From NCBI GenBank assembly GCA_945897465.1, contig CAMDFK010000010.1, positions 36,145-100,144 of the forward strand: a DNA stretch of 64,000 nt. The letters are read 5' to 3'. The first letter of the stretch is position 1, and the number at the start of each line of letters is the position of its first letter. The notes under the pieces are model-generated. The model ran no database searches. It worked only from the letters and a program-made list of their open reading frames with translations, and was not told the DNA's origin. Made by a program: the position numbers and the translations under genes. The DNA is from Limnohabitans sp. Rim8 (GTDB lineage: Bacteria > Pseudomonadota > Gammaproteobacteria > Burkholderiales > Burkholderiaceae_C). Positions 22,629 through 40,782 of the stretch are shown here, in pieces.

Positions 22629-22704
22629 GCGGGAATAGCTCAGTTGGTAGAGCGCAACCTTGCCAAGGTTGAGGTCGCGAGTTCGAGCCTCGTTTCCCGC
22701 TCCA
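22629..22704 (+). tRNA. tRNA-Gly (anticodon GCC), copy 1
   Basis: Acceptor stem GCGGGAA/TTCCCGC, D arm AGCTCAGTTGGTAGAGC, anticodon loop TTGCCAA (anticodon GCC), T arm GAGTTCGAGCC and encoded CCA. It is the first gene of a three-tRNA cluster after lon. Confidence 0.97.
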
Positions 22705-22752: not shown

Positions 22753-22828
22753 GCGGGAATAGCTCAGTTGGTAGAGCGCAACCTTGCCAAGGTTGAGGTC
22801 GCGAGTTCGAGCCTCGTTTCCCGCTCCA
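22753..22828 (+). tRNA. tRNA-Gly (anticodon GCC), copy 2
   Basis: Identical in sequence to the copy at 22629, starting 48 bases after the first copy ends. The spacer is AT-rich and unrelated to the tRNA. Tandem duplication raises the dose of the main glycine tRNA. Confidence 0.97.
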
Positions 22829-38252: not shown

Positions 38253-38939
38253 TCAAGATGGTTCATTCGTTTTCTTGGCGGGTGCTGTTGGGGGCGGGCT
38301 GACTTGGGCTTGCGCGGGCCCTTGGGTCAGGGCGGTGTGCATCATGCCCATCAAATAGGACTCGGCCTGCGCTGGCACACCGGGCGTGAGCACCAGGTGC
38401 TGCATGACGTTGGACTGCTGGATGCCGGCCATACCGTGCAGGGCCGACCAAATGAAAAGGGCTTGCAGCTCCGCTTGGGCCAACAGGGCCAGCATGTCGC
38501 TTTGTGGGGCGCTGGCGCGTTGCTGCAATTGCTGCAGCAACTGGTTTCGCAACAAGTCAAAAGCATGCACCGCATGGCGCACCAGTTCGGGATGGGCCGC
38601 TGGTTCAGGCCAAGGAGTGCCAAACATCAAGCGGTATTCAAGGGGATGCTGAGCGGCGTAGCGCATGTAGGCCTCGCCCATGCCCAGCAGCGCATCCGTG
38701 GCGTGCGCTTGGGACGCCTGGTCGAGATGGTTGGCGAAATCCTCAAAGCAGCGCTGCATGATGGCCGCGAGCAAGTGGTCCCGACTGGGGTAGTGCCGGT
38801 AGGGGGCTTGGTGCGAAACCCCCAGTTTTCGGGCGACATCGCGCAGGCTCAAACCCTCTGTGCCTTGTTCTGCAATCACTTCTCGGGCCGCCTGAATGCA
38901 GGCCTCTTTCAGGTCCAGCTCGTGAATGGTTTTGACCAT
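38253..38939 (-). CDS. TetR-family transcriptional regulator
   Basis: 228-residue TetR repressor. The helix-turn-helix is in LSLRDVARKLGVSHQAPYRH (about residues 31-50), followed by the typical FPSRDHLLAAIMQ-type region. The C-terminal domain has the WHG-like ligand pocket of the TetR_C_33 group (YRLMFG, WSALHGMAG) and a Gln/Pro tail. ATG 38939 is chosen; a longer frame to 38975 runs over the operator. It is divergent from the membrane-protein gene with two operator copies in between, so it probably represses both itself and that gene. Confidence 0.92.
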   Translation of the reverse strand: MVKTIHELDLKEACIQAAREVIAEQGTEGLSLRDVARKLGVSHQAPYRHYPSRDHLLAAIMQRCFEDFANHLDQASQAHATDALLGMGEAYMRYAAQHPLEYRLMFGTPWPEPAAHPELVRHAVHAFDLLRNQLLQQLQQRASAPQSDMLALLAQAELQALFIWSALHGMAGIQQSNVMQHLVLTPGVPAQAESYLMGMMHTALTQGPAQAQVSPPPTAPAKKTNEPS

Positions 38940-38961
38940 ATTGCCTTTGACTGGGGTTGAG

Positions 38962-38976
38962 GTTGACAGTGTCAAC
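38962..38976. promoter_or_regulatory. Operator copy 1, GTTGACAGTGTCAAC
   Basis: Perfect inverted repeat with 6-base arms and a 3-base spacer, located between the TetR gene and the membrane-protein gene. It overlaps the -35 element of the plus-strand promoter. Almost identical to the second copy 31 bases downstream. Confidence 0.8.
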
Positions 38977-38991
38977 AGTTTACGTGATACT
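38963..38991 (+). promoter_or_regulatory. Sigma-70 promoter for the membrane protein gene
   Basis: TTGACA (38963-38968), a 17-base spacer and GATACT (38986-38991) form a near-consensus promoter. The -35 lies inside operator copy 1, and operator copy 2 covers about the transcription start, so bound TetR would block it completely. Confidence 0.7.
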
Positions 38992-38992
38992 T

Positions 38993-39007
38993 GTTGACGG
39001 TGTCAAC
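38993..39007. promoter_or_regulatory. Operator copy 2, GTTGACGGTGTCAAC
   Basis: Second perfect palindrome, differing from copy 1 by one base in the spacer. The 31-base centre-to-centre distance is about three helical turns, so two TetR dimers could bind on the same DNA face. It is 14 bases before the ATG of the membrane protein. Confidence 0.8.
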
Positions 39008-39021
39008 TTGAGGGGGAAATC

Positions 39022-39816
39022 ATGTCATTCATTGAGGCGTTGCATCGTTTGGTCGATTCGGCTTTGGGCTGGCCCGAACTGAGCGCGGCGCAAAAAACTT
39101 TGTGTGTTTACGCGCTGTTGATGGCGGCCTTGCTGCTGCCGACTTATGCCCTGTCGTGGTTCGATCTGCGCACGCTGCGCGAGGTGGGCATCTGGGCCAA
39201 ACCCATGAAGTTCATGGCCGGCACGGCGCTGTTTGCCTTGACCACGGTGTGGCTGAGCACTTTGGTGCCTGGCCAGGTGGGGCATGACCCCAGTTTTCCG
39301 TGGATCGCGGCATTGATCGTCGTCACCTCCTTGTTTGAGGTGGTCTATATCACCGGCCAAGCGGCCAGAGGGGAAGGCTCGCACTACAACACCACGGACC
39401 CTGTGCGGGCCATGATGTTTGGGCTGATGGCGCTGGCGGCGGTGGGTTTGGTGGCATCCCAAGCTTGGCTGGCGTGGGTGATCTGGAAAGCCTTGGGGCC
39501 AGCGGTGCTCACGCCCACCACTTGGGCGGTACTTTGCGGTTTGGTCTTGACCTTCGTTTTATCCACGGTGAGTGGCTTCATGCTGGGGGGCAAACAACCG
39601 CCAGCGGGTGTGGGCTGGCCGGTGGTGGGTTGGCACACTGGGCAAGACCTGCGGCCCGCGCATTTTTTGGCGGTGCATGCCCAGCAATTCATCCCGCTGG
39701 CGGGCTTGCTGGCCGAACGGCTGATGGGCCAGGCCGCCATACCCGGGGTGATTGCTTTCACGCTCAGTTATCTGGCCGCATGGGTGGGCTTGAGTGTGAT
39801 GGGCATGTCGGGTTGA
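39022..39816 (+). CDS. Conserved multi-pass membrane protein of unknown function, TetR-controlled
   Basis: 264-residue protein with about seven predicted hydrophobic segments. Distinct motifs are SWFDLRTLREVGIWAKPMKF (about 45-64), a His in GEGSHYNTT (about 119-127), and GWHTGQDLRPAHFLAVHAQQF (about 204-224) with three His residues near membrane boundaries. I recall similar WxKPMKF-containing hypothetical membrane proteins in proteobacteria but know no function. The His residues could bind metal or heme, which is inference. Strong repression by the divergent TetR suggests a conditional function such as efflux, stress or a toxic compound. Confidence 0.75.
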   Translation: MSFIEALHRLVDSALGWPELSAAQKTLCVYALLMAALLLPTYALSWFDLRTLREVGIWAKPMKFMAGTALFALTTVWLSTLVPGQVGHDPSFPWIAALIVVTSLFEVVYITGQAARGEGSHYNTTDPVRAMMFGLMALAAVGLVASQAWLAWVIWKALGPAVLTPTTWAVLCGLVLTFVLSTVSGFMLGGKQPPAGVGWPVVGWHTGQDLRPAHFLAVHAQQFIPLAGLLAERLMGQAAIPGVIAFTLSYLAAWVGLSVMGMSG

Positions 39817-39887: not shown

Positions 39888-40646
39888 TCACTTCGGTGCC
39901 AAGCGGATCGCGCCGTCCAATCGGATCACTTCGCCGTTGAGCATGTCGTTTTCGATGATGTGTTGGGCCAATTTGGCATAGTCCTGTGGGGTGCCCAAGC
40001 GGCTAGGGAAGGGAACGCCTGCGGCCAACGCGTCTTGCACTTCTTGGGGCATGCCAAACAGCATGGGGGTGCCGAAGATGCCGGGGGCAATCGTCATGTT
40101 GCGGATGCCGTTGCGGGCCAGGTCGCGGGCAATCGGCAGGGTCATGCCCACCACGCCACCTTTGGACGCGGCATAAGCGGCTTGGCCGATTTGGCCGTCA
40201 TAGGCCGCCACGCTGGCGGTGCTGATCAGTACGCCGCGCTCGCCAGTGGCTTCGGGCTCGTTTTTGCACATGGCCTCAGACGCCAAGCGGATCATGTTGA
40301 AGCTACCCACCAAGTTGACCATGATGGTCTTGGTGTAGACGGCCAGGCTGTGTGCGCCGTTTTTACCCACCGTCTTTTCGGCGGGGGCGATGCCCGCGCA
40401 GTTGACCAAGCCAACGAGTTTGCCCATGGACACCGCTTGGGCCACCACGGCTTGGCCGTCGGCCTCGTTGCTCACGTCGCATTTGACAAAGGCACCGCCG
40501 ATTTCCTTGGCAATCGCGTCGCCTTTTTCCGCCTGCATGTCGGCGATCACGACCTTGCCGCCGTTGGCTGCCAGCATGCGGGCGGTGCCTTCGCCCAAGC
40601 CCGATGCGCCGCCGGTGACGATGAAAACTTTGCCTTGAATGTCCAT
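39888..40646 (-). CDS. Short-chain dehydrogenase, 3-hydroxyacyl-CoA dehydrogenase type
   Basis: 252-residue NAD-dependent SDR resembling human HSD10 (3-hydroxyacyl-CoA dehydrogenase type 2). The cofactor motif is [10 protein letters not shown] (residues about 11-20), the NAG equivalent is NCAGIAP, and the catalytic motif is YAASKGG (about 162-168) with an upstream Ser. The C-terminal [16 protein letters not shown] is typical. Likely role in beta-oxidation of branched-chain or short-chain acyl-CoA. The promoter carries a dyad at 40666-40680. Confidence 0.87.
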
Positions 40647-40665
40647 GTTTCGCTCCTGAAAGTGA

Positions 40666-40680
40666 TTGACGTTACGTCAA
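40666..40680. promoter_or_regulatory. Operator-like dyad TTGACG-TTA-CGTCAA before the SDR gene
   Basis: Perfect 6+6 inverted repeat with a 3-base spacer, 20 bases upstream of the SDR ATG. Its ACGT-containing symmetry resembles operators of MerR-type (LiuR-like) regulators of branched-chain amino-acid and acyl-CoA catabolism. The match is from memory; no regulator gene is adjacent. Confidence 0.5.
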
Positions 40681-40782
40681 CGTTAATTATGCCCTCCTCA
40701 GGGGTGTTGGGGCGCAGCGATAGGCATCAGAAAAAGGGTTGAATGGGCATGGGCATGAATGAAACAAGTTGTGCCTTGGATC

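Follow-up and report, generated by a model that had tools for sequence, protein, structure and literature searches.

A self-contained tet-type switch that controls a seven-transmembrane (7-TM) effector is, at a probability of roughly 0.77, the best explanation as a whole for a divergent gene pair in Limnohabitans sp. Rim8. The pair lies in a stretch of 64 000 nucleotides, referred to here as the window (G000:C10:36145-100144, that is, contig C10 of genome G000, 3.02 Mb in 48 contigs). It consists of a gene for a TetR-family regulator (tetR) and a gene for a membrane protein of what we call the KPxKF family. The intergenic gap of 82 bp holds two palindromes, O1 and O2, which we treat as putative operators, and two predicted σ70-type promoters that face each other. 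Sequence comparison supports the genes, operators and promoters as well as their co-conservation. The features are as follows.

38253..38939, minus strand: tetR, encoding a TetR_N + TetR_C_33 repressor of 228 amino acids, start ATG 38939
38962..38976, no strand: putative operator O1, GTTGACAGTGTCAAC, perfect 7+1+7 palindrome; holds the -35 box of the membrane-protein gene and the predicted tetR start site
38963..38991, plus strand: predicted σ70-type promoter of the membrane-protein gene, TTGACA-17-GATACT, by consensus match alone (10/12)
38977..38992, no strand: spacer of 16 bp with both -10 boxes, TAAACT (minus) and GATACT (plus)
38977..39006, minus strand: predicted σ70-type promoter of tetR, TTGACA-18-TAAACT, by consensus match alone (10/12)
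38993..39007, no strand: putative operator O2, GTTGACGGTGTCAAC, 6/7 pairs; holds the tetR -35 box and the predicted start site of the membrane-protein gene
39010..39016, plus strand: ribosome-binding site GAGGGGG, purine-rich, read off the sequence
39022..39816, plus strand: membrane-protein gene, KPxKF family, 264 amino acids, seven helices

An earlier account made from the letters alone (the sequence-only reading) had proposed that a TetR regulator and a membrane protein of no known function share two near-identical palindromic operators over a consensus promoter, as a ligand-induced membrane system. The palindromes indeed begin at 38962 and 38993; each is 15 bp long, they differ at one base, and their centres are 31 bp apart. 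The promoter TTGACA-17-GATACT of the membrane-protein gene was recovered by a consensus scan, with its -35 box in O1 and its predicted start in O2, as had been claimed (transcript starts were inferred to lie ∼7 bp past the -10 box). What had been missed is the second, overlapping promoter on the minus strand, directed toward tetR. Between 38100 and 40000, the scan returned three promoter-like sites, compared with 0.4 in shuffled sequences. Overlapping divergent promoters covered by putative operators, as in a tet-type switch, are present as consensus promoters on both strands. This geometry would let polymerase transcribe only one of the two genes at any moment, and a protein repressing from either palindrome would touch both promoters.

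The assignment of the regulator to the TetR family held up, as the tetR product exceeds the curated Pfam cut-offs for both TetR_N (46.5 bits versus 24) and TetR_C_33 (42.2 bits versus 26.8). We take ATG 38939, which is conserved in relatives, as the probable start codon rather than the upstream TTG 38975 given in the list of open reading frames (ORFs), which falls within O1. The best sequence matches of this TetR in the PDB are 3on2 (residues 6-178), 2oi8 (SCO4313; 17-123) and 5d1r (Rv1816; 13-118), with E-values of 1.6e-12 to 5.1e-12; to our knowledge, none of the three controls a KPxKF protein.

O1 and O2 are the sole pair of similar 15-mer palindromes in the window (≤ 2 differences, 15-60 bp apart), and such a pair occurred in 0/30 Markov-resampled windows. 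Single sites of the type GTTGACN3GTCAAC number three genome-wide, two of them being O1 and O2, and a reversed-pattern control also gave three; a second such comparison of single-site counts with the control gave 22 versus 11. It is the pairing, not the single sites, that stands out from chance. Resampled windows and shuffled upstream DNA rule out chance palindromes for the pair, not for single sites. Searching the own genome for GTTGACANTGTCAAC with two mismatches did not yield a second paired site. A wider regulon in this genome was rejected, as no further target came to light; the best other single site, CTTGACATTGTCAAC at C9:52790, lies within an ORF of L085.

Is the arrangement conserved? 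Of 90 congeneric genomes, counting the own one, 12 encode the TetR at E ≤ 1e-30. Every one of these 12 also has the adjacent membrane-protein gene and the two operators, spaced by 31 bp; L033 differs in that an SDR gene intervenes, on the side of tetR, between tetR and the operators. These 12 loci were found via TetR alone. Adding four loci that belong to two further families of this order gives 16 distinct loci with 31-bp spacing. Their mean pairwise identity was 0.94 in O1 and 0.88 in O2, as against 0.54 in the spacer and 0.39 and 0.35 in the flanks of 30 bp; since the 16 loci were chosen for having the pair, this choice itself accounts for some of the identity of the operators. Under lax thresholds, the promoter toward the membrane-protein gene was present in 16/16 loci (9-10 of 12 bases) and the opposing one in 15/16 (8-11 of 12 bases). 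Relatives thus retain the gene pair, the operators with their spacing and the overlap with the promoters, so that the lack of conservation named as a possible refutation in the sequence-only reading did not materialise, and its regulatory part is well supported by comparison.

Beyond these close relatives, 59 distinct KPxKF-family loci were collected, and 55 were scored after four with < 150 bp of upstream DNA had been dropped. A pair was called when each site had at least 9/12 core bases and the two were 20-45 bp apart within 900 bp. It was present in 26/28 loci with a full TetR match, in 0/2 with a partial match and in 2/25 with none detected, that is, none by tblastn with one TetR over 1.3-5 kb upstream. 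After shuffling of the upstream sequence, 0-3 of 200 trials per locus produced a pair. On inspection, L071 (annotated TetR), L057 (Pfam TetR) and L061/L092 were reclassified as TetR-bearing; L092, which is L061 read further out, shows both TetR and paired sites 31 bp apart. The corrected table reads 28/31 loci with TetR versus 1/23 without, leaving out L038, which has a TetR match of 41 amino acids and O1 only. More divergent TetRs (29-32% identity; L062, L063, L065, L067, L069, L083 and L084) also face paired TTGACA-type palindromes; these start with C instead of G, are 32, 38 or 41-43 bp apart, and are followed first by an ABA4-like gene and then by the KPxKF gene. In addition, a later set of eight loci from other genera was examined. 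TetR was found in six, and the two TetR-less loci had no in-gap pair.

Four related loci without TetR are informative about the fate of the operators. In L042, L010/L043, L044 and L011/L047, the membrane protein is 78-83% identical, O1 is gone and O2 is kept, intact in L042 and L010/L043 and altered in L044 and L011/L047; the genomes of two of these loci, G029 and G023, lack such a TetR at E ≤ 1e-30. Loss of O1 together with tetR fits the decay of a site that had become useless.

A number of observations weigh against the switch or narrow the case for it. O1 may have left with tetR in one deletion that ended before O2, and our confidence is slightly lowered by the unaltered O2 of two TetR-less loci together with a single-site count no higher than that of the reversed control. 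Because the loci share ancestry and also supplied the motif itself, a Fisher P of ∼1e-10 for the association overstates the case; moreover, many of the TetR-less rows extend only 1.3-1.5 kb upstream. The 26 pair-bearing loci include weak cases, e.g. L079 with sites 21 bp apart. Three loci have TetR and no pair, i.e. L055 (TetR convergent, one operator), L073 and L057. The later set gave a weaker picture. At the same threshold, four of its six TetR-bearing loci had an in-gap pair, and these differed in quality: L107 has two good sites, L109 and L110 one good and one poor site, and L112 two poor ones. L111 and L114 have TetR and no in-gap sites, while chance pairs occur outside the gap in L112 and L114. 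Nor is TetR the universal neighbour. Of 30 plasmid records with a relative, we examined 11, nine of them annotated at this place and two without annotation. A regulator adjoins the KPxKF gene in 7/9 annotated records, and none is adjacent in the other two; it is a TetR in Microvirga, Deinococcus and a Comamonadaceae plasmid, a MarR in Streptomyces, an AraC in Polymorphobacter and another helix-turn-helix protein in two haloarchaea. Finally, neither the window genome nor the surroundings of the locus contain an ABA4-like protein. A separate idea, that the TetR recognition helix covaries with the operator (no SHxAP, no TTGACA pair; L057, L073), was dropped because the TetRs of L109 and L110 have SPAAP and a single good TTGACA-type site is nevertheless present at either locus.

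The switch that best accounts for these data would work as follows; we infer its steps of TetR binding, repression and ligand release, and an activity of the membrane protein. A TetR dimer would sit on each palindrome, about three helical turns apart. Since each operator supplies one promoter with its -35 box and covers the start region of the opposing promoter, occupancy would shut both genes, silencing tetR (autoregulation) along with the membrane-protein gene. A small, probably hydrophobic, ligand would then free TetR from the DNA and induce both genes. A lipid-type ligand is possible by analogy with the TetR-family repressor AcrR of Mycobacterium tuberculosis, for which release from DNA upon fatty-acid binding is described (PMC6768106).

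The effector belongs to a family without a name. The 264-amino-acid protein matched no Pfam or NCBIfam family and no PDB sequence, so that its lack of a known function, as the sequence-only reading had put it, stands; its best named match is a protein of a Limnohabitans metagenome-assembled genome (95%). Two Pfam matches lie below cut-off, TatC (E 0.032) and the transporter family ABC2_membrane_5 (E 0.66). Relatives share seven transmembrane helices and the pattern WxKPxKF...E...SH[YF]N...RxxHF...H. In alignment A4, which comprises 28 sequences from four phyla including the window protein, the invariant positions are D48, K60-P-x-K63-F64, E106, I110, S120-H121, R211, H214-F215 and H219; the window protein, being one of the 28, has them by construction. 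The WxKPMKF motif noted previously corresponds to residues 58-64. Of the several histidines remarked on near membrane boundaries, H121, H214 and H219 proved invariant and H205 did not. Most of the invariant residues D48, K60, K63, E106, S120, H121, R211, H214 and H219 are located on the same face of the membrane, and to judge from the distribution of charges this is the cytosolic face. The hosts are proteobacteria, actinobacteria, Deinococcus and haloarchaea, and the distribution is patchy: the family is present in 17/60 of the nearest genomes and, own included, in 14/300 genomes of the order, 3/369 of the class and 10/398 of the phylum.

Elsewhere, KPxKF proteins are linked to ABA4-like proteins (PF14108). 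An ABA4-like domain is fused N-terminally to a relative in Bordetella sp. (E 3.3e-25) and C-terminally in the haloarchaeon Halorientalis (E 8.7e-37), and an ABA4-like gene adjoins the KPxKF gene in Microvirga and others. Such a partner, fused or adjacent, was found at 18 distinct loci, including six of the eight in the later set, and the KPxKF proteins at all 18 are ≤ 44% identical to the window protein, which itself has no ABA4 domain. The ABA4-like and KPxKF profiles are unrelated, and only one of 90 congeneric genomes encodes an ABA4-like protein. We think that the window protein is a stand-alone relative of those KPxKF proteins that in other organisms have an ABA4-like partner, fused or next door. 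In nearer relatives, other neighbours suggest lipid-like or otherwise hydrophobic chemistry. Specifically, a patatin-like phospholipase lies behind tetR at eight loci with long matches (L023, L025, L027, L029, L032, L033, L051 and L092) and at four with short matches of 58-120 amino acids (L024, L026, L031 and L053), and the operators of L092 are separated from the KPxKF gene by genes for a DUF2141 protein and an SDR. In the window, the gene next to tetR on its far side encodes a gamma-glutamyltranspeptidase, with no patatin-like gene there, and the membrane-protein gene is the single gene under the switch, as the gene that follows it (SDR, 39888-40646) is on the minus strand.

What does the membrane protein do? 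Membrane genes divergent from tetR typically encode exporters (the TetA, AcrB and QacA logic), and a drug or metabolite exporter would suit a layout that equals that of tetR/tetA, with one membrane gene under the switch, and the two sub-cut-off Pfam matches, TatC and ABC2_membrane_5. We nevertheless consider an exporter unlikely: no exporter profile scored above cut-off, the seven helices carry invariant charged residues and three invariant histidines, and ABA4-like fusions in two orders suggest a complex more than a pump. We favour an enzyme or binder of the inducer over an exporter, and think of an integral-membrane protein acting on a hydrophobic inducer.

A more specific proposal is a haem-b or metal enzyme with a fold of the haem-copper-oxidase/styrene-oxide-isomerase (SOI) type, e.g. 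one that isomerises, oxidises or reduces hydrophobic epoxides or aldehydes. The suggestion in the sequence-only reading that haem or metal might be bound gains slight support from the invariant His, Lys and Arg residues and from a predicted fold whose helix arrangement resembles haem-copper oxidase subunit I and SOI, though helical bundles can reach such scores by chance; a Foldseek search of the predicted structure gave no significant match. No sequence similarity to either enzyme was found, the window protein has no Pfam match to haem-copper oxidase subunit I at E ≤ 1, and the haem ligands of either are not recognisable in it. H58 of SOI sits in the second transmembrane helix. It is the axial haem ligand (PMC11374702), and helix 2 of the window protein (59-81) contains no His. 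We consider this proposal unlikely in its specific form, and an enzyme of haem or metal type in general less likely than not. Taken as a whole, the earlier interpretation is partly supported.

That the palindromes serve another regulator or reflect facing TTGACA boxes as a general σ70 feature, with TetR a bystander, is very unlikely: TTGACA being the -35 consensus, promoter function by itself explains part of the sequence, and single sites are as frequent genome-wide as the reversed-pattern control, but it leaves the full 15-bp dyads unexplained, and these are conserved above spacer and flanks and associated with TetR.

Returning to the tet-type switch, the ABA4 links invite a broader and decidedly speculative extension. 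TetR, ABA4-like and KPxKF proteins might form an undescribed inducible membrane enzyme system, found from proteobacteria to haloarchaea, with a haem-oxidase/isomerase-like fold and hydrophobic epoxides or lipid-like molecules as substrates. ABA4-like and KPxKF proteins would then contribute ∼11 helices to one assembly, and the Limnohabitans locus would be its minimal, ABA4-less form. The ABA4-like family is named after a plant carotenoid-pathway protein. For plant ABA4, no enzyme activity had been identified as of 2014 (PMC4199509); the need for a partner could explain why none was found for ABA4 alone.

The closest known design is that of Tn10, in which two operators overlap the promoters and TetR represses itself and tetA (PMC3037858, PMC11686294). 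As in Tn10 tetR/tetA, the TetR gene here diverges from a membrane gene, with two putative operators in the shared gap, and by analogy repression of both the own gene and the target would be expected. The differences lie in the parts. The operators are 15-bp GTTGACA-type dyads, in contrast to the 19-bp tet operator, and each contains a -35 box; the ligand domain is TetR_C_33; and the membrane protein, which had no MFS profile match at E ≤ 1, is no pump of that family. The switch architecture is known, the effector family uncharacterized. In the open-licence literature, no paper was found on a TetR with a GTTGACA palindromic operator, or one joining the TetR family, patatin and DUF2141; six operator strings turned up in two papers, which by their titles deal with herpes simplex virus 1 (HSV-1) cohesin and chromatin loops, and among five papers that mention ABA4-like proteins, titles and abstract beginnings disclosed nothing on those of bacteria.

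Several variants were seen among the relatives. In L027:1501-3096 and L041:3321-4916, the TetR frame continues without a stop into the patatin-like lipoprotein gene (546-amino-acid open frame), possibly a TetR-patatin fusion or a sequence error. In the TetR of one strain (L032:1360-2130, L036:4148-4918), 34 C-terminal residues are duplicated in tandem. In a congener (L018:1450-1968, L056:5001-5516), an in-frame TGA cuts the KPxKF gene, which is probably a pseudogene; neither TetR nor an operator pair was found at these loci. Elsewhere in the window, a palindrome of the type TTGACGTTACGTCAA at 40665-40681 lies upstream of the minus-strand SDR gene and is conserved at L004:3144 and L005-L012; presumably it resembles operators of MerR-type regulators of fatty-acid or branched-chain degradation (LiuR-like). 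Since it precedes the SDR gene and is still present at loci that lack TetR, it was not counted as part of the switch. The tandem tRNA-Gly (GCC) genes at 22629-22704 and 22753-22828 have anticodon arms that form two identical 15-bp palindromes, AACCTTGCCAAGGTT, which are ordinary.

Given its textbook tet-type design, the value of the switch is practical, i.e. a compact, conserved repressor-operator pair. Screening for the ligand of its TetR is feasible, and that ligand would indicate which substrate a nameless, patchy and phylogenetically broad 7-TM family acts on. Fusions in both orders tie the KPxKF family to the ABA4-like family, and if the two kinds of protein cooperate, a tractable bacterial system would open both families.
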